NCBI RefSeq assembly: GCF_007421815.1
Contig: NZ_VLNT01000006.1
Span: 57,108 to 121,107 of the forward strand
Reading direction: 5' to 3'
DNA: 64,000 nucleotides
Source of the DNA: Aeromicrobium piscarium
GTDB lineage: Bacteria > Actinomycetota > Actinomycetes > Propionibacteriales > Nocardioidaceae
A program made the translations under genes and the position numbers. Every line of letters starts with the position of its first letter. Position 1 is the stretch's first letter. This document shows, in pieces, positions 19,939-27,503 of the stretch. The notes under the pieces are model-generated. The model ran no database searches, had not been told where the DNA came from, and saw only the letters and a program-made list of their open reading frames with translations.

Positions 19939-20763
19939 ATGACTTTCTCCTGGCAGAAGGGGCACGGTACGGAGAACGACTTCGTGCTGCTGCCCGACCA
20001 CGACGGCACCGTCCACGGCGACCTCGATCCGAGCTTCGTGGCGGCCCTGTGTCATCGGCGCCGCGGGATCGGCGCCGATGGCGTGCTGCGCGTGATCCGA
20101 TCGTCCGCGGCGGGAGTGACGTCCGAGGCCGAGTGGTTCATGGACTATCGCAATGCCGATGGATCGATCAGCGAGATGTGCGGCAACGGCGTGCGGGTCT
20201 TCGCCCGCCATCTGCTGGACGAGAAGCTGGTCGACACCGATCGCTTCGCGGTCGCCACGCGTGACGGCGACAAGCTGGTCTCCGTCGGCGCGGACGGGCA
20301 GATCGCCGTCGACATGGGCGCCTTCAGCATCGGCGGGTACAGCGAGGTCCGCACGAGCGAGGGCCTCGCCGTGACCGCGCGCGAGGTCCACACCGGGAAT
20401 CCTCATGCCGTCGCCTTCGTCGACGATGTCGAGCAGGCGGGGACCCTGCTCACCGAGCCGCGCTTCGACCGGGAGGTCTATCCCGAGGGCGTCAACATCG
20501 AATTCGTCGCCCGTCGTGGCCCCGGACACGTGCGCATGCGGGTGCACGAGCGGGGCTCAGGGGAGACGCGCTCATGCGGCACCGGGGCCTGCGCCGTCGG
20601 GATCGCCACAGCGCTCGCCGACGGTGACACAGCGCGGCCGACCGAGTATCGGATCGACGTCCCAGGGGGCACGGTGCACGTGACACTGGACGAGAACGAC
20701 CACGTGGTCCTCACCGGACCCGCCGAGATCGTGGCCCGCGGCGAGATGGAGTGGATGGCATGA
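19939..20763 (+). CDS. dapF: diaminopimelate epimerase
   Basis: Converts LL- to meso-diaminopimelate for lysine and peptidoglycan synthesis. The 274 residues carry both catalytic cysteines: C81 in SEMCGNGVRVFAR and C213 in RSCGTGACAVG. The N-terminal KGHGTENDFVLLPD and the middle HTGNPHAV are also typical. Its stop overlaps the start of a 27-codon micro-ORF (ATGA) that in turn overlaps hflX, so dapF, the micro-ORF and hflX form one coupled chain. Confidence 0.96.
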   Translation: MTFSWQKGHGTENDFVLLPDHDGTVHGDLDPSFVAALCHRRRGIGADGVLRVIRSSAAGVTSEAEWFMDYRNADGSISEMCGNGVRVFARHLLDEKLVDTDRFAVATRDGDKLVSVGADGQIAVDMGAFSIGGYSEVRTSEGLAVTAREVHTGNPHAVAFVDDVEQAGTLLTEPRFDREVYPEGVNIEFVARRGPGHVRMRVHERGSGETRSCGTGACAVGIATALADGDTARPTEYRIDVPGGTVHVTLDENDHVVLTGPAEIVARGEMEWMA

Positions 20764-20843
20764 GCGAGCGAAGCGAGCGAAAAGATGGGCTGCTCATGCC
20801 GGCATCGGCCTATGGTGGTCTTTTTCAGGCGGTGGTGGCATGA
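20760..20843 (+). CDS. 27-codon micro-ORF coupled to dapF and hflX
   Basis: ATG 20760 overlaps the dapF stop and TGA 20841-20843 overlaps the hflX ATG, both as ATGA. The peptide begins MSERSERKDGLLMPASAYGG. Its DNA matches the module repeated before lexA: ATGAGCGAGCG with AGCGAGCG, a CTCATGCCGGCA core, CGGCCTA, then AGGCGGTGG before the next ATG. It may serve as a translational relay or simply be part of a mobile 5' module. There is no evidence that the peptide itself acts. Confidence 0.55.
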   Translation: MSERSERKDGLLMPASAYGGLFQAVVA

Positions 20844-22252
20844 GCGAGCGGAACAACGGGCTGACTGAGCGGAACGAGGAGATCGTGGACTCCGGCTCGC
20901 TGGACCTGGAGGAGCGGTCCTCGCTGCGCCGCGTCGCGGGGCTCTCGACCGAGCTCACCGACATCTCCGAGGTCGAGTATCGGCAGCTGCGGCTCGAACG
21001 GGTCGTCCTCGTCGGCGTCTGGACCGATGGCACCGCGGCCGATGCCGAGAACTCGCTGGCGGAGTTGAAGCTGCTGGCCGAGACGGCGGGCTCGGAGGTC
21101 CTCGACGCGCTGGTGCAGCGACGTCAGCGTCCGGACCCCGCCACGTTCATCGGCAGCGGCAAGGTCGACGAGCTGCGCGAGGCGGTGGAGGCGACCGGCG
21201 CCGACACGGTCATCTGCGATGGCGAGCTCGCGCCCAGCCAGCTGCGCAATCTGGAGGATCGGGTCAAGGTCAAGGTGGTCGACCGGGTCGCCCTGATCCT
21301 CGACATCTTCGCGCAGCATGCGAAGAGCGCGGAGGGCAAGGCGCAGGTCGAGCTGGCGCAGTTGCAGTACCAGAGCCAGCGATTGCGCGGGTGGGGCGGC
21401 AATCTGTCCCGCCAGGCCGGTGGCCGTGCCGCCGGCGGTGAGGGCATCGGCGGTCGCGGACCGGGCGAGACCAAGATCGAGACCGATCGTCGGCGGATCC
21501 AGTCGCGCGCGGCCAAGCTGCGCCGCGAACTGGCCGAGCTGCGGACCACGCGCGACACCAAGCGCGCCAATCGCCAACGCCATCAGATCCCCTCGGTGGC
21601 GATCGCGGGGTACACGAATGCCGGCAAGTCGAGTCTGCTGAACCGGCTCACCCATGCCGGCGTGCTGGTCGAGGACGCCCTGTTCGCGACCCTCGATCCC
21701 ACGACCCGGCGCACTCAGACCTCCGACGGCCGTGTGTACACGTTGTCGGACACCGTCGGCTTCGTCCGGCATCTGCCGCACCAACTCGTCGAAGCCTTCC
21801 GATCCACCCTCGAGGAGGTCGCCGATGCCGACCTGATCGTGCATGTCGTCGACGGCTCGCATCCCGACCCGCTCGGGCAGATCACCGCGGTGCGCGAGGT
21901 CTTCGCCGAGATCGGCGCCGAGGGAGTCCGCGAGGTCATCGTCGTCAACAAGACCGATGCCGCCGATCCCGCGGTGGTACGCGAGGTGCTCGCCCGTGAG
22001 CCGCACGCCGTGGTGGTCAGCGCCCGCACGGGCGAGGGGATCGACGAGCTGCTCGGACTCATCGAGAGCGAGCTGCCGCGGCCCGAGGTCGCGGTGGATC
22101 TCGTGCTGCCGTACGAGCGCGGCGACCTGCTCAATCGGATCCATGAGTCCGGTGAGATCGACGAGGTGGAGCACCGTTCCGACGGCACCCGGGTCGCCGC
22201 GCGCGTCGGGGCCGGTCTCGCGGCCGAGCTCGCTCCGTATCTCGTCGAGTAG
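20840..22252 (+). CDS. hflX: ribosome-associated GTPase HflX
   Basis: GTPase that binds stalled 70S ribosomes and splits them under stress. The 470-residue protein has an N-terminal HflX domain (about 60-200, with FIGSGKVDELREAV), a coiled region with GGRGPGETKIETDRRRI, then the G domain: G1 GYTNAGKSSLLNRL, G2/G3 ATLDPTTRR and DTVGFVRHLPHQLVEAFRSTLEE, and G4 VVNKTDAAD. It starts MSERNNGLTERNEE inside the MSER repeat module. The miaA-dapF-hflX order is conserved in actinobacteria. Confidence 0.95.
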   Translation: MSERNNGLTERNEEIVDSGSLDLEERSSLRRVAGLSTELTDISEVEYRQLRLERVVLVGVWTDGTAADAENSLAELKLLAETAGSEVLDALVQRRQRPDPATFIGSGKVDELREAVEATGADTVICDGELAPSQLRNLEDRVKVKVVDRVALILDIFAQHAKSAEGKAQVELAQLQYQSQRLRGWGGNLSRQAGGRAAGGEGIGGRGPGETKIETDRRRIQSRAAKLRRELAELRTTRDTKRANRQRHQIPSVAIAGYTNAGKSSLLNRLTHAGVLVEDALFATLDPTTRRTQTSDGRVYTLSDTVGFVRHLPHQLVEAFRSTLEEVADADLIVHVVDGSHPDPLGQITAVREVFAEIGAEGVREVIVVNKTDAADPAVVREVLAREPHAVVVSARTGEGIDELLGLIESELPRPEVAVDLVLPYERGDLLNRIHESGEIDEVEHRSDGTRVAARVGAGLAAELAPYLVE

Positions 22253-22258
22253 ATGATC

Positions 22259-22470
22259 GATGTGCGTGGACGGTTGCTGGGGCGACCACGCATGCACATC
22301 CTGTGTCGCGTCCGGTCCGACTGACGGCCCTCACCGTGGGCGGTGACGTACGCACCCCTCGCGCGCGTGGCAGGTGAGATAGGCACCCCTCATGCGGTCC
22401 GAGACGTGCGTAACCCACCTCTCCAGGAGCGCGTGACGCCCCACCGCCCGCCCCAGCGCGATCCGGAAGG
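22259..22470. repeat. Inverted-repeat cluster, GCACCCCTC type
   Basis: GGGCGGTGACGTACGCACCC (22338-22357) and GCAGGTGAGATAGGCACCCC are near-direct copies about 32 bp apart. Inverted partners include GTGCGTAACCCACC (22406-22419) and GACGCCCCACCGCCCGCCC (about 22435-22453). A separate palindrome ATGTGCGTGG ... CCACGCATGCACAT spans about 22259-22300. No gene is seen in 22253-22510. Confidence 0.65.
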
Positions 22471-22510
22471 GTGCCTGTGGACCGCGCCCGAGCCGCGCGC
22501 GATGACCCGG

Positions 22511-22516
22511 TAGCCT
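22511..22516 (+). promoter_or_regulatory. -10 box of DinG-like helicase
   Basis: TAGCCT ends 6 bases before ATG 22523, predicting a leaderless mRNA. Confidence 0.5.
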
Positions 22517-22522
22517 GCGGCC

Positions 22523-24460
22523 ATGGCCTCTGACGTGCGCGATGTCCTGTCGGCCGCGGTGGACGCGGTGGGAGGCACCGAACGACCCGGCCAGATCGCG
22601 ATGGCCGAGGCCGTCCAACAGGCCTTCGACACCGAGCAGCACCTGCTCGTCCAGGCCGGCACGGGCACCGGGAAATCGCTGGGATACCTCGTGCCCAGCC
22701 TGCTCCACGATCAGCGCGTGGTGATCGCCACGGCCACGCTCAACCTGCAGCATCAGTTGGTCGAGCGGGATATTCCCGCGCTCAAGGAGGCGGCCCGCGA
22801 GGTGCTGGACGATGTCCCGCACCACGCCGTGGTCAAGGGACGCGGCAATTACGCGTGCCTGCATCGCGTCCGCGAGGGCGCCCCGGACGACCAGGGCACG
22901 CTCGTCGAGGTGCCGGAGGGAACCCTGGGTGCCGAGGTCGTCGCCCTGCGTGAGTGGGCCGAGCAGCAGGCGGACGGCGGCCACGTGGGCGACCGAGACG
23001 CGGCGCCCTCGCACAACGAGCGGGCCTGGCGTCAGGTCAGCGTCACCGCGAGGGAGTGCCTGGGCGCCCAGCGCTGCCCCTACGCCCTCGAATGCTTCGC
23101 CGAGCGGGCGCGCGAGGACGCCCAGCAGGCACACATCGTGGTCACCAACCACGCGATGCTCGCCATCGACGCGATCGACGGCGTGCCGATGCTGCCGGAA
23201 TTCGGCACGGTCGTGATCGACGAGGCACACGAGCTCGCCGCCCGGGTCACGCAGGCGGCCACCCAGGAACTGGACCCCGCCGGTATCGAGCGTGCGGCGC
23301 GCCGGGCCCGTCCGCACCTGACCGAGCCGGAGGCCGCCGACGATCTGAGCGATGCCGCCGATGCGCTGGCCGACACCCTCACCCATGTCTCACCCGGCCG
23401 CATCGAGGAGCCGCCCCAACCGCTGCGCGCCGCGCTCGACCTCGTCCGCGACACCGCCCGCGCCTGCTTCTCGGCTTTCGGCAAGGAGCGAGGCGGCGAG
23501 GAGCCCGATCCCGCGCGCCAGCAGGCGCGCAGTGCCGTCGACGAGCTGCGACAGGTAGCCGAGCGCATGGCACGCGGCAGCGACACAGATGTCCTGTGGC
23601 TCGGGGAGCTGCGCACCGGCCAGCAACTGCGGATCGCGCCGATCGACGTGTCCGGCGCGCTGCGCGACAAGCTCTTCGGGGAGAAGACCGTCGTCCTGAC
23701 CAGTGCGACCCTCGCGCTCGGCGGATCCTTCGATCCGGTCGCGCGGTCCCTCGGGCTCTGGGAGGACGCGCAGTGGCGCGGACTGGACGTGGGCTCGCCC
23801 TTCGACTACGCCAAGCAGGGGATGCTCTACGTCGCTCGCCACCTGCCTGCCCCCGGCCGGGACGGTCTGGAGGAGGATCAGCTCGGCGAGATCACCGCTC
23901 TGGTCAAGGCGGCCGGTGGGCGCACGCTGGGATTGTTCTCCTCGCGTCGCGGTGCGGAGCGCGCCGCGGAGTACGTACGTATGGCACTGCCGGATATCGA
24001 GGTGCTGTGCCAGGGAGACGCGCAGCTTCCCGAGCTCGCGCGCCGTTTCGCCGAGGAGCCGAGCACGTGCCTGTTCGGCACGCTGAGCCTCTGGCAGGGA
24101 GTCGACCTTCCCGGTGACACCTGCACGCTCGTCATCATCGACCGCATCCCCTTCCCTCGCCCCGATGACCCTCTGATGAGTGCCCGCCAGCGTCTGGTCG
24201 AGAAGCGCGGCGGCAACGGCTTCATGCAGGTCGCCGCCCACCACGCGGCACTGCTGCTGGCGCAGGGAGCGGGCCGTCTCATCCGGCGCGCGGACGATCG
24301 CGGCGTGGTCGCGATGCTCGACCCCCGCATCGTCACGGCGCGCTACGGAGGCTTCCTCGCGGCGTCGATGCCGCCGCTGTGGCGCACCACCGACCGCGCC
24401 ACCGTGATGGCGGCGCTGGGACGACTCGACGCAGCTGCCGTGGAGCGTGCCGCATCCTGA
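22523..24460 (+). CDS. DinG-like ATP-dependent DNA helicase (XPD family)
   Basis: A 645-residue superfamily 2 helicase. Walker A is VQAGTGTGKSLGYLVPS (about 43-60) and the DEAH box is VVIDEAHELAARV (about 232). Four cysteines between them (YACLHR, ARECLGAQRCPYALECF) form the Fe-S cluster site of DinG/XPD enzymes. Motif V/VI lies in FGTLSLWQGVDLPGD and QGAGRLIRRADDRG. DinG-type helicases unwind 5' to 3' and clear R-loops or DNA lesions. No LexA box is seen here, so SOS control is not supported. Confidence 0.9.
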   Translation: MASDVRDVLSAAVDAVGGTERPGQIAMAEAVQQAFDTEQHLLVQAGTGTGKSLGYLVPSLLHDQRVVIATATLNLQHQLVERDIPALKEAAREVLDDVPHHAVVKGRGNYACLHRVREGAPDDQGTLVEVPEGTLGAEVVALREWAEQQADGGHVGDRDAAPSHNERAWRQVSVTARECLGAQRCPYALECFAERAREDAQQAHIVVTNHAMLAIDAIDGVPMLPEFGTVVIDEAHELAARVTQAATQELDPAGIERAARRARPHLTEPEAADDLSDAADALADTLTHVSPGRIEEPPQPLRAALDLVRDTARACFSAFGKERGGEEPDPARQQARSAVDELRQVAERMARGSDTDVLWLGELRTGQQLRIAPIDVSGALRDKLFGEKTVVLTSATLALGGSFDPVARSLGLWEDAQWRGLDVGSPFDYAKQGMLYVARHLPAPGRDGLEEDQLGEITALVKAAGGRTLGLFSSRRGAERAAEYVRMALPDIEVLCQGDAQLPELARRFAEEPSTCLFGTLSLWQGVDLPGDTCTLVIIDRIPFPRPDDPLMSARQRLVEKRGGNGFMQVAAHHAALLLAQGAGRLIRRADDRGVVAMLDPRIVTARYGGFLAASMPPLWRTTDRATVMAALGRLDAAAVERAAS

Positions 24461-24473
24461 GCGACGGTCTCAG

Positions 24474-24479
24474 TACGCT
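24474..24479 (+). promoter_or_regulatory. -10 box of galE
   Basis: TACGCT ends 6 bases before ATG 24486, predicting a leaderless mRNA. Confidence 0.5.
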
Positions 24480-24485
24480 GAGGTC

Positions 24486-25442
24486 ATGGCGATCTTGGTG
24501 ACCGGCGGAGCCGGCTACATCGGCGCGCACATCGTGCGTGCCTTCGACGAGGCAGGACTCGATTCGGTGGTGGTCGACGACCTGTCGAGCGGGCACCGCG
24601 AGTTCGTGCCCGATGATGTGCCCTTCATCGATCTCAACATCACCCGCACCAAGAAGCTCACCGAGGCGCTGCGCCGGTACGACATCGAGGCGGTCGTCCA
24701 TCTCGCCGGTTTCAAGTACGCTGGTGTCTCGGTCGAGCGGCCTCTGCACACCTACCAGCAGAACGTGCAGGGCACGGTCAGCCTGCTGCGGGCGATGGCC
24801 GAGCACGGCATCGGCACGATCGTGTTCTCCTCCAGTGCGGCGGTCTACGGCACACCCGATATCGCTCTCGTGACCGAGGACACGCCGACGGCGCCCGAAT
24901 CACCCTATGGCGAGAGCAAGCTCGTGGGGGAGTGGATCATCGCCGATCAGGCCCGGGCGACGGGTCTGCGGCACACCTCGCTGCGGTACTTCAACGTGGT
25001 GGGCTCGGGCACACCGGACCTGTACGACTCCAGCCCGCACAATCTGTTCCCGCTCGTCATCCGCGCGCTCAGCGAGGGTCACCGGCCGAAGATCTTCGGT
25101 GCGGACTACCCGACGCCGGACGGCACCTGCGTCAGGGACTACGTTCACGTCGCCGATCTCGCACAGGCGCACGTGGTGGCCGCCCAGAAGCTGCTGGCCG
25201 GCGAGTCGCTCGAGCCGGTCTACAACCTGGGCAGCGGCGACGGTGTCTCGGTACGACAGATCATGACCGCGGTGGCTCGCGCGACGGGTATCGACTTCGA
25301 GCCGCAGGTCGTCGATCGCCGTCCCGGGGACCCGGCGCGGATCGTGGCCTCGGGGGAGCGGGCCGCCCGCGACCTGCAGTGGGCCATGCGGCACACCCTG
25401 GACGAGATGGTGACGAGCGCCTGGCAGGCCGGCCGGGAGTGA
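24486..25442 (+). CDS. galE: UDP-glucose 4-epimerase
   Basis: Extended short-chain dehydrogenase that interconverts UDP-glucose and UDP-galactose using tightly bound NAD. The 318-residue protein shows ILVTGGAGYIGAHIV (2-16), DDLSSGHREFV, HLAGFKYAGVSVERP, FSSSAAVYGTP, the catalytic pair in SPYGESKLVGEW, LRYFNVVGSG and TPDGTCVRDYVHVADLAQAHV. The length is slightly short but complete. It stands alone and convergent with lexA, with a repeat cluster between them. Confidence 0.92.
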   Translation: MAILVTGGAGYIGAHIVRAFDEAGLDSVVVDDLSSGHREFVPDDVPFIDLNITRTKKLTEALRRYDIEAVVHLAGFKYAGVSVERPLHTYQQNVQGTVSLLRAMAEHGIGTIVFSSSAAVYGTPDIALVTEDTPTAPESPYGESKLVGEWIIADQARATGLRHTSLRYFNVVGSGTPDLYDSSPHNLFPLVIRALSEGHRPKIFGADYPTPDGTCVRDYVHVADLAQAHVVAAQKLLAGESLEPVYNLGSGDGVSVRQIMTAVARATGIDFEPQVVDRRPGDPARIVASGERAARDLQWAMRHTLDEMVTSAWQAGRE

Positions 25443-25457
25443 GACCGCCCATCAATG

Positions 25458-25586
25458 GGCGGGTGAGTAGGCGTCCCCTCCTCGACCCCGCAAAACCCCA
25501 CAGGCGGTCAGTAGGCGTCCGTCTGTCACCTGAGATGGACGCTGATGCACCGCCGTCTCGTGTGAACGGACGCCTACTCACCGCCC
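25458..25586. repeat. Inverted-repeat cluster between galE and lexA
   Basis: Two direct arms, GGGTGAGTAGGCGTCC (25461-25476) and GGCGGTCAGTAGGCGTCC (25503-25520), face two inverted arms, GGACGCTGATGCACCGCC (25538-25555) and GGACGCCTACTCACCGCCC (25568-25586). The outer pair is nearly perfect. This is the same variant as at 18571-18653. The place between convergent genes suits a two-way terminator. Confidence 0.8.
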
Positions 25587-25611
25587 ACGATGGGGAGGGG
25601 GTGCGGGGCGG

Positions 25612-26322
25612 TCAGACGCGGCGCAGGACCGCCGTGACCTTGCCGAGGATCGTGGCGTGGGTGCCGTCGATCGGCTCGTAGGCGTCGTTATGAGGCAGCA
25701 GCCAGACCTGGCCGTCCTTGCGCTGGAAGGTCTTGACCGTCGCCTCGCCGTCGATCTGCGCCGCCACGATCTCGCCGTTCTCCGCGACCGGCTGCTGGCG
25801 GATGACCACATAGTCGCCATCGCAGATGGCCGCATCGACCATCGAGTCGCCGCTGACCTCCAAGAGGAACAGGGTGCCGTCGCCCACCAGCGAGCTCGGC
25901 AGCGGCATGACCTCCTCGACCCGCTCCTCGGCGAGGATGGGACCGCCGGCGGCGATCCGTCCCACCACCGGCACGTAGGTGGCCGCCGGACGCTCGTTGC
26001 CGAGATCGGTGACATCAGCGAGATCCTCGGCGGTGCTGCCGAGCGAGCGGTGCACCTCCGGCAGATGGATCTCCAGCGCACGCGGGCGGTTGGGGTCGCG
26101 CTTGATATAACCCATCCGCTCGAGCATGCGCAACTGGTGGGAGACCGAGGACGTGCTCGCGAGGCCGACGGCAGCCCCGACCTCGCGCATGCTGGGCGGG
26201 TAGCCGCGATCGCGCAGGCTGTCGCGCAGGAACTCCAGCACCTTGCGCTGACGCGGGGTCAGCCCGCTCGCATCGGGAGGTCCGTCGGGCAGTTCGGTGA
26301 CGTCATCGCTGCGCTCGCTCAT
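25612..26322 (-). CDS. lexA: SOS repressor LexA
   Basis: Represses DNA-damage genes and cleaves itself when RecA filaments form. The 236 residues have the winged-helix domain (20-85, [32 protein letters not shown]), the cleavage site A125-G126 in RIAAGGPIL, catalytic S160 (SGDSM) and K197 (EATVKTF). ATG 26322 gives [15 protein letters not shown] start 45 bases upstream is in frame but lies inside a duplicated leader. Two micro-ORFs precede it, each linked by an ATGA overlap; the promoter and LexA box lie about 170-210 bp upstream. Confidence 0.95.
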
Positions 26323-26405
26323 GCCGCCACCGCCTCGAGGAGAAACAGGGTAGGCCGGTGCCGGCATGAGGTGACTGTCTTCGGTCGCTCGCTGCGCTCG
26401 CTCAT
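26319..26405 (-). CDS. 28-codon micro-ORF 2, coupled to lexA
   Basis: ATG 26405 runs 28 codons to TGA 26321-26319, which overlaps the lexA ATG (ATGA). The peptide begins [20 protein letters not shown]. It is identical to micro-ORF 1 because of the 83-bp duplication. GAGGCGG before its stop is the likely ribosome-binding site for lexA. A role as a relay for ribosomes reaching lexA is inferred. Confidence 0.55.
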
Positions 26406-26488
26406 GCCGCCACCGCCTCGAGGAGAAACAGGGTAGGCCGGTGCCGGCATGAGGTGACTGTCTTCGGTCGCTCGCTGCGCTCGCTCAT
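26402..26488 (-). CDS. 28-codon micro-ORF 1, first ORF of lexA mRNA
   Basis: ATG 26488 lies 6 bases after the TACCGT box, so it is predicted to be the 5' end of a leaderless lexA transcript. It ends in TGA 26404-26402, overlapping micro-ORF 2. Same peptide as micro-ORF 2. Before the duplication this ATG, or its equivalent, was probably the lexA start itself. Confidence 0.55.
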
Positions 26489-26494
26489 GCCCTC

Positions 26495-26535
26495 ACGGTA
26501 GCGGGATCGACCGTCCATATCAAACATCTGTTCGA
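26495..26535 (-). promoter_or_regulatory. lexA promoter with LexA box
   Basis: The LexA box at 26520-26535 reads, on the minus strand, TCGAACAGATGTTTGA, one change from TCGAAC-N4-GTTCGA. It covers the -35 TTGATA (26523-26518); 17 bases later comes the -10 TACCGT (26500-26495). This predicts autorepression of lexA, with transcription starting at about 26488. Confidence 0.8.
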
Positions 26536-26540
26536 ATAGG

Positions 26541-27497
26541 TCAGTGCGTGTCGTGACGGCGGCCCTGGGTGTCGTCGATCACCTTGATGAAGGTGGTGAT
26601 CTCGTCCTCGATCTGCAGCTGGGCACGTTCGGCATCGGTGCGGGACTGCGCGGTGTCCAGGTCCTCGGTGAGCGTGCGCTGGTTGACGACATTCTCCTCG
26701 ACGGCCTGGAGCGCGGCACCGAACAGCACGGCGTAGAGGCCCACCCATAGCCACAACAGCAGGACCACCACGCCGGCGAGCGCACCGTAGGTCTCGCCGT
26801 AGCTGCCGAAGTTGTTGACGTACACCGAGAAGCCGACCGAGGCGATGATCCACAACCCGGCGGCGGCGAGTACCCCGCGTGTCACGAAGCGCTGTGGACT
26901 CGGGCGGTTGGGGGCGAGGCGATACATCATCGCGATGAGGGCGATCACGAGACCGATCAGGATGAGCCAGCGCGCCACCTCGGCCGCGATGCGCACGCCC
27001 GGCACGATGTCGATGATCGAGAACAGGGCGGGCGCCACGGCCACCAGTGCCACCGCGACGATCGCGAAGGCGATCGCCGCGGCCGTCATGCCGTAGGCGA
27101 GCGCCTTGCGCTTGACGAAGCTGCGGTCATCGCCCAGTCCGTACATGGTGTTGACGGCGGTGAGCAGATTGCTGACACCGCCGGATGCGCTGTAGAGCGC
27201 GATGGCCAGCGCGATCACGGTGGTGACACCGAGCGCCCCGGAGGACGTCTCGGCGACCTGCTGGATCTGGTCGGTGACGATCGACGCGGCATCCGCTGGC
27301 AGCACGTCCTGGATGCGGTCGACCTGACCGGCGATCGTCTGGGGGGAGGCGAACAGGGCGTACAGCGAGATGCCCGCGATCACCGCCGGGAACAGCGAGG
27401 TGAAGGTGTAGAAGGCGACTCCCGCGGCGAGGAGCGGCGCCTGATGGGAGGACGCCTGCTGCCAGGCGAGCTTCGCGGTGGCGATCGTCGAACGCAT
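26541..27497 (-). CDS. YihY/BrkB-family membrane protein
   Basis: A 318-residue protein with six hydrophobic helices. The N-terminal AAGVAFYTFTSLFPAVIAGISLYALF and the later SVGFSVYVNNFGSYGETYGALAGVVVLLLWLWVGLYAVLFGAALQAVEE are hallmark YihY/BrkB segments. The family was once called ribonuclease BN by error; its function is unknown, though some members affect envelope stress or serum resistance. The C-terminal 50 residues are charged and cytosolic. A TAGTTT box lies 6 bases before the ATG. Confidence 0.88.
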   Translation of the reverse strand: MRSTIATAKLAWQQASSHQAPLLAAGVAFYTFTSLFPAVIAGISLYALFASPQTIAGQVDRIQDVLPADAASIVTDQIQQVAETSSGALGVTTVIALAIALYSASGGVSNLLTAVNTMYGLGDDRSFVKRKALAYGMTAAAIAFAIVAVALVAVAPALFSIIDIVPGVRIAAEVARWLILIGLVIALIAMMYRLAPNRPSPQRFVTRGVLAAAGLWIIASVGFSVYVNNFGSYGETYGALAGVVVLLLWLWVGLYAVLFGAALQAVEENVVNQRTLTEDLDTAQSRTDAERAQLQIEDEITTFIKVIDDTQGRRHDTH

Positions 27498-27503
27498 GTC
27501 CCG

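Follow-up and report, generated by a model that had tools for sequence, protein, structure and literature searches.

Two tandem copies of a MIRU-like repeat at the start of a probably leaderless-type lexA gene in Aeromicrobium piscarium

The window analyzed here is a stretch of 64,000 nucleotides from Aeromicrobium piscarium (contig NZ_VLNT01000006.1, positions 57,108 to 121,107). It carries lexA on the minus strand, and the LexA identity of the product is given by NCBIfam TIGR00498 (239.9 bits, cut-off 110.95). Upstream of lexA lies an ORF for a YihY-family membrane protein, which ends at 26541. Two repeat units resembling MIRU, reportedly the mycobacterial interspersed repetitive units of Supply et al. 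in 1997, were found before lexA. The features are the following, with their basis in parentheses.

26521..26534, minus strand: LexA (SOS) box CGAACAGATGTTTG (sequence, motif fit)
26518..26523, minus strand: -35-like TTGATA, overlapping the LexA box (sequence)
26495..26500, minus strand: -10 TACCGT in leaderless geometry (sequence and genus lexA leaders)
26406..26488, minus strand: MIRU-like unit 1, 83 bp, with a 28-codon micro-ORF (sequence, family matches)
26323..26405, minus strand: MIRU-like unit 2, 83 bp, same as unit 1 (sequence, family matches)
26402..26405, minus strand: ATGA handover 1, micro-ORF 1 stop and micro-ORF 2 start (sequence)
26319..26322, minus strand: ATGA handover 2, micro-ORF 2 stop and lexA start (sequence)
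26401..26453, minus strand: predicted RNA hairpin of unit 1, with the loop hexamer in the loop and the next ATGA in the 3' arm (inverted repeat, covariation)
26318..26370, minus strand: predicted RNA hairpin of unit 2, with the lexA start codon within the 3' arm (inverted repeat, covariation)
26430..26435, minus strand: loop hexamer TACCCT (TANNNT) of unit 1, candidate internal -10 (alignment, position count)
26347..26352, minus strand: loop hexamer TACCCT (TANNNT) of unit 2, candidate internal -10 (alignment, position count)
25612..26322, minus strand: lexA, 236 aa (TIGR00498 above cut-off)
20760..20839, plus strand: further unit of the family, 80 bp, ending at the hflX start codon 20840 (DNA match C43:77867-77946; HflX above cut-off)

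The box CGAACAGATGTTTG fits the Streptomyces LexA-box consensus, tCGAAC-N4-GNNCGa, as given in PMC9380542, with a single T-for-C deviation. The spacer between TTGATA and TACCGT is 17 nt, and 6 nt (GAGGGC) separate TACCGT from the unit-1 ATG at 26488. Units 1 and 2 are identical at 83/83 bases, the exact duplication being as it stands in an assembly of 46 contigs. At an offset of 83, the identity across the lexA leader extends over 103 bases, because the repeat is also matched by 3 bases 5' of unit 1 and by the initial 17 bases of lexA. Each micro-ORF consists of 28 sense codons and a TGA that overlaps the following start codon in an ATGA, at 26405 for unit 1 and at 26322, the lexA start, for unit 2. 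Both the promoter layout claimed in an earlier note on this DNA (LexA box, TTGATA, TACCGT, 6 nt, ATG 26488) and its 28-codon ORFs with ATGA overlaps and exact 83-bp duplication were thereby confirmed in the sequence. An N-terminal extension of LexA by 15 residues, from ATG 26367, was considered and rejected: the frame is open here but is closed by TAG in units with TAG-type hexamers, for example at C23:24857. Between the 3' end of lexA and a convergent ORF, which we take to be epimerase-like, an inverted repeat was found at 25503-25585, with 20-nt arms GGCGGTGAGTAGGCGTCCGT / ACGGACGCCTACTGACCGCC and 1 mismatch; it is perhaps a shared terminator of lexA and the convergent ORF.

A LexA box was found in 48 of the 49 genus lexA leaders, A. 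piscarium included. In 46 of these 48 leaders, a TANNNT hexamer is located 5-8 nt before an in-frame start codon (47 if L144 is counted from a second script), and the gap from the box to the start in the 46 leaders is 32 nt (15 leaders), 33 nt (29), or 34 nt (2). The remaining boxed leader is that of A. piscarium, with its unit-1 ATG at gap 32. Such a hexamer was found before 2 of 1230 in-frame start codons inside lexA. In a wider set of 101 distinct leaders (from 110 loci, 5 without a box and 4 duplicates being removed), 54 are leaderless-type, and many Nocardioides lexA leaders are without this geometry. In Mycobacterium tuberculosis, the LexA start coincides with the transcription start by experiment, and the gene is under SOS control (PMC2897130). 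The earlier claim that the first micro-ORF is leaderless is supported by comparison with the 46 of 48 genus leaders and with this M. tuberculosis start, and the A. piscarium transcript may thus begin at the unit-1 ATG.

As a DNA query, the 83-mer had 75 matches in the A. piscarium genome at E<=10, many of them tandem, so the duplication before lexA is not a chance event. Of these matches, 66 were grouped into 40 clusters; nine short ones were omitted, eight of which lie on the strand opposite to an array. Full units, for which the script demands a terminal RTGA, number 53 in 35 clusters (34 of 83 bp, 16 of 80 bp, and 3 of 84 bp). The 5 of 40 clusters without a full unit by script were dropped, C23:172646 through a narrow script pattern. 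A covariance model was built on an alignment, A1, of 43 sequences chosen from 48 distinct units. It found at least 82 matches in the A. piscarium genome, some outside the 40 clusters; the own loci found by the model alone (for example C4:32877, C34:64546, and C9:16204) lie outside the 35-array counts. The nearest relative, herein referred to as G023, has at least 67 matches. Matches were also found in at least 42 of 49 Aeromicrobium genomes (A. piscarium included), in at least 73 of 245 genomes drawn from the family (the genus included), and in at least 14 of 394 genomes drawn from the class, two of them outside the family. All these model counts are lower bounds, with at most 90 (genus), 18 (family), or 11 (class) candidates scored per genome under stricter filters. 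Rfam families gave one match in the part of the window from 20000 to 27500, far under the gathering score and not at these units. Carriage by plasmids or phages was considered and rejected, an 85-nt consensus having no match at E<=1e-3 in plasmid and phage collections; the query is short and its sensitivity weak.

The unit is rare at lexA itself. By the covariance model, it was found at 1 of 30 genus loci, that of A. piscarium, and at 0 of 19 further genus loci, one of which (L285) ends at the contig edge; the scan thus covers 49 genus genomes. It was found at none of the 70 named lexA loci scanned of 80. These counts bear on the view that the two micro-ORFs form a dedicated lexA leader, selected to tune the LexA dose or the recovery after damage. 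The units do lie between the LexA box and lexA, and two handovers should reduce the yield. However, the unit is a genome-wide repeat, and the lexA loci of the 48 other genus genomes (29 and 19, the latter with the one cut at the contig end) and the 70 named loci yielded none. We therefore regard a leader evolved for lexA as improbable; the lexA case appears instead as one insertion of a dispersed MIRU-like element, present at this gene in 1 of 49 genus genomes.

The insertion sites share a position. In 34 of the 35 A. piscarium arrays with full units, the last unit directly adjoins the RTGA start of an ORF of 127 or more codons on the same strand, and the 35th, C12:126593, ends in a 29-nt, 10-codon remnant with a stop overlapping the ilvN start. 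In this array (C12:126593-126843, L030), three 84-bp units are fused in one frame before ilvN, and the remnant restores the ATGA overlap. The genes downstream of arrays that score above curated NCBIfam cut-offs include those for LexA, HflX, HemA, IlvN, ArgF, CoaBC, CoaD, PurM, TlyA, MltG, and precorrin-8X methylmutase. Histidine kinases, ABC and TRAP transporters, and others were found below the cut-offs, and 9 of the 35 downstream genes had no family match at E<=1e-10. An ORF that spans at least 80 codons, or is still open where the stretch ends, comes after 83 of 90 distinct units in relatives; four of the other 7 have another unit next to them, and the remaining three precede short ORFs. 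By this same measure, the other two frames are open in 54 of 180 cases, and open frames are common in GC-rich DNA such as this, which counts against the weight of this downstream-ORF finding. The gene after the array at C23:24940 (L003, near 1584) begins with MSERSESQLV and its G023 orthologue with MSQLV, so the element head seems to have become a protein N-terminus there. N-termini resembling the head were also seen in other families and, in G023, at the site corresponding to C1:283733.

A TANNNT hexamer is located 6 or 7 nt 5' of the first ATG in four arrays, those of lexA, C42:89917, coaD (C44:86282), and C42:7591, and 9 nt 5' of it in array C1:43862. The coaD hexamer sits within an upstream open frame, and the stretch upstream of C42:7591 looks like the tail of a degraded unit; this leaves lexA and C42:89917 as the two arrays that could well have been inserted at a leaderless start.

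Occupied and empty sites were compared between A. piscarium and G023. The downstream stretches of the 35 arrays gave 33 matches in G023, 30 of which led to loci; the comparison covers 30 arrays, and for the other 5 no fetched locus fitted. The element is missing at 11 of the 30 G023 sites: lexA, hemA, ilvN, argF, coaBC, purM, C14:8072, C16:37879, C23:155623, C45:34411, and C1:330390, where the gene start resembles the head. Sixteen sites are occupied, several at a different copy number; thus, the hflX start has two units in G023 and one in A. piscarium. At the site of C1:57864, G023 has just 30 unrelated bases, and 2 of the 30 sites carry a different insert at the same start. This other insert, at L224 and L221 (orthologous to C42:78761 and C45:25488), is palindromic, the L221 type being GAGATGTGCT...AGCACATCTC; a stretch resembling it was also found upstream of the A. 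piscarium array C43:141234. It is perhaps a second repeat family.

The G023 lexA leader consists of the box, TATCGT, 6 nt, and ATG, with no unit. An equal leader was found in Aeromicrobium sp. PE09-221, the best named LexA match (97%). In both A. piscarium and G023, lexA begins with the 17-nt head of the element. The difference at lexA may reflect a gain in A. piscarium or a precise loss in G023, both being possible; the two are not separable, because the shared head would let recombination delete a copy. No mobilising enzyme of the element was found.

The length of the units is constrained. An RTGA overlap requires a length of 2 mod 3, and unit lengths are accordingly in phase: among the 133 distinct units that have an RTGA at each end, 126 are of such a length (42 of 43 from A. 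piscarium, 84 of 90 others). The unit ORF is open to an RTGA (-4) overlap in 50 of 53 full units of A. piscarium, in 66 of 72 distinct units of relatives, the other 6 being out of phase, and in 18 of 18 units in G023; the 7 of 79 distinct relative matches without RTGA at both ends as matched were set aside. The two coupled handovers claimed before lexA in the earlier note find support in this comparison across the family.

The encoded peptide varies. The MSERSER start was found in 67 of 133 distinct units, and the head also occurs with an extra base (MSERSER vs MSERQRA). Counted from the start codon, the frame of the central motif differs among units, yet the total length comes back into phase; the centre and tail of the peptide read SCRRRPIVLFFEAVAA at C3:6703 and LMPVSAYRVLLQAVAA at C1:273881. 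The indels are therefore compensated, a pattern to be expected under selection on the overlap and not on the peptide. Because the units share ancestry, they represent fewer independent events: five in-phase combinations were found, one resting on a single unit and another on four. A functional micro-ORF peptide amplified by the duplication would agree with the conserved start and stop and the frequent MSERSER head, but with the centre and tail read in different frames between units we consider it highly improbable. We think that translation coupling, not the peptide, is what the units conserve.

The handover is enclosed by a structure. The unit DNA contains an inverted repeat which, judged by covariation, behaves as an RNA helix whose 3' arm contains the next ATGA. 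In A. piscarium units, 88.2% of the cells are paired vs 83.8% after shuffling, and the covariation score is 0.210 vs 0.135 (0 of 500 shuffles reaching either value); slid versions score 0.027-0.078, and the number of pairs with two-sided change, 5, was matched by 29 of 500 shuffles. In relatives (79 distinct sense matches), the values are 92.3% vs 79.1% and 0.385 vs 0.147 (again 0 of 500 each), two-sided pairs were equalled in 1 of 500 shuffles, and slid versions score 0.048-0.141; this alignment was fitted to the model and hence biased towards it, and the shuffles leave relatedness in place. Adding ten opposite-strand palindrome matches to the set of relatives gave an agreeing result (0.360 vs 0.137). 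G-U pairs are common in the hairpin, and two single-sequence folds were not unusual against shuffles (z -0.84 and -1.38). Across the family, a predicted covarying hairpin encloses each handover ATGA.

In 40 of 43 A. piscarium units and 78 of 90 other distinct units (118/133), the hairpin loop contains a TANNNT hexamer, 22-26 nt 5' of the following RTG. The hexamer was found at 0 of 3098 other positions in the A. piscarium units and at 2 of 6419 in the others. Its T, A, and last T are more conserved than the three middle bases, and it is kept in differing reading frames. The commonest form, TATCGT, is also the lexA -10 in G023. The simplest reading is that the loop hexamer is a -10; it may also be an RNA processing or other site. 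If it is a real -10, the element would have two modes: short transcripts would start about 17-18 nt before the next ATG, without the 5' hairpin arm, lexA would gain one or two promoters that escape repression by LexA, with the handover relay serving only read-through transcripts. The position-specific hexamer, its pattern of conservation across frames, and the match to the G023 -10 all speak for this, as does the report that the MIRU-bearing senX3-regX3 region drives senX3-independent regX3 expression (PMC4213456). Against it, the alignment contains no conserved -35-like block upstream of the hexamer, and the hexamer could serve processing or another role. The expected +1 falls in a pyrimidine tract, and a transcription +1 is usually a purine. 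Weighing these points, we find such dual use plausible, at somewhat below an even chance. Loop-hexamer promoters would yield transcripts that bypass the relay, and in A. piscarium they may possibly start lexA transcripts inside the units, outside LexA repression.

What the aligned DNA shows directly is where the element sits, its tandem arrangement, its membership in a dispersed family, the rule of phase, the covariation of the hairpin, and the conservation of the loop hexamer. The explanation that we favor, and consider likely, is that two tandem copies of a MIRU-like mobile repeat sit exactly on the ATGA start of lexA, a gene of leaderless type and under SOS control in the relatives of A. 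piscarium, and that the repeat brings a ribosome relay with it. The transcript from the native LexA-controlled promoter would now begin at the unit-1 ATG. A ribosome would translate micro-ORF 1 without a leader, melt hairpin 1 on reaching the TGA of the ATGA, re-initiate on micro-ORF 2, melt hairpin 2, and re-initiate on lexA. The relay carried by the element would keep the target gene translated, which would explain why dozens of copies at gene starts are tolerated. On this reading, lexA is probably still translated despite the insertion, and the micro-peptides are probably by-products.

The consequences for the SOS response depend on the promoter. If only the native promoter acts, LexA output would fall by the product of two re-initiation efficiencies, with autoregulation partly compensating; if the loop hexamers act, part of lexA expression would escape LexA. 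Either scenario could shift the SOS threshold. The lexA case, if true, is a mobile repeat within an autoregulated stress circuit. The occupied and empty pairs between close relatives would then make the insertion rule and its effect on expression testable, and the phase, the covarying hairpin, and the loop hexamer provide concrete predictions for how an insert at a start codon is tolerated.

Related units occur more widely. The head pattern RTGAGCGAGCGNAGCGAGCGAAC was found in 16 of 394 class genomes, belonging to 9 of 137 genera. Among 23 matches of this pattern in 20 loci, examined of 30, 18 have an ORF ending in the RTGA of another ORF or unit (two of these, L300 and L301, are near-identical), 4 continue as the start of a longer ORF, and 1 leaves the contig end. 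Units with the same head in other actinomycete families, 77 and 80 bp among them, are likewise RTGA-terminated, which makes a common class-wide stock of units possible. A broader proposal would join these observations into an Actinomycetes superfamily of mobile translation-relay elements with the head RTGAGCGAGCGNAGCGAGCGAAC, which would land on start codons, hand ribosomes over at RTGA, close the next start by a hairpin unless translated, and carry their own loop -10; at lexA, a LexA-independent supply would reset the SOS threshold in one strain. We regard this proposal as speculative and, taken as a whole, rather unlikely.

REP/BIME elements with their RAYT transposase are short dispersed palindromes, and in this respect the Aeromicrobium units are alike. 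A palindrome of this type, moved by a Y1 (RAYT/IS200-like) transposase and unlinked to translation, would account for a repeat that is short, dispersed, and tandem. However, Y1_Tnp (PF01797) was found in 0 of 49 genus genomes at E<=1e-5, a control search being positive in 5 of 14 genomes, and the start-codon siting and fixed 2 mod 3 phase of the units would be left unexplained. We give this origin almost no credence.

Two mycobacterial systems resemble the lexA start in part. The leaderless lexA of M. tuberculosis is comparable in its start codon at the transcription start and in its SOS control, both predicted from sequence for the A. piscarium leader; inserted units are unmentioned in the consulted portion of that source, whereas A. 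piscarium has two (PMC2897130). Leaderless small ORFs with a TGA overlapping the RTG of the next gene have been described in mycobacteria (Shell et al., 2015; PMC4633059). They share with A. piscarium the small ORF, there predicted to be leaderless, and the RTGA overlap; in A. piscarium, in contrast, the ORF is repeat-borne and doubled. MIRU are absent from the main text of that paper and from that of the eLife 2022 ribosome-profiling paper PMC9094748.

The closest likeness is to MIRU. These are known from mycobacteria, chiefly as typing markers. They are tandem units of 46-101 bp, present at 41 loci in M. tuberculosis H37Rv (PMC3914561), and are described as apparently mobile, inserting at start codons, with the unit ORF coupled to the host gene at -4 spacing (PMC12548453). 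The MIRU of senX3-regX3 are 77 and 53 bp, lengths that are also 2 mod 3, and are said to be confined to M. leprae and the M. tuberculosis complex (PMC4213456). A search of titles and abstracts, with subscription papers mostly outside it, gave among the matches listed no MIRU-like elements in Aeromicrobium and no hairpin or loop -10 in MIRU. The Aeromicrobium units differ in belonging to another genus and order, in being mostly 83 and 80 bp, and in having a leaderless-type gene as target at A. piscarium lexA; their covarying hairpin and loop TANNNT are unmentioned for MIRU in the portions of these sources consulted. Shared with MIRU are the short unit (83, 80, or 84 bp, within 46-101 bp) at many loci and often in tandem (40 clusters), the position at a start codon in the orientation of the downstream gene (35/35 arrays, one via a remnant), and the RTGA (-4) overlap with neighbours (50/53 own, 66/72 relatives, 18/18 in G023). 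Mobility, as in MIRU, is reflected in the empty sites (11/30) and variable copy number, the direction of change aside. By architecture the Aeromicrobium family is MIRU, a likeness that rests on features, not sequence homology; if true, it extends MIRU-type elements from mycobacteria to another order, in dozens of copies.
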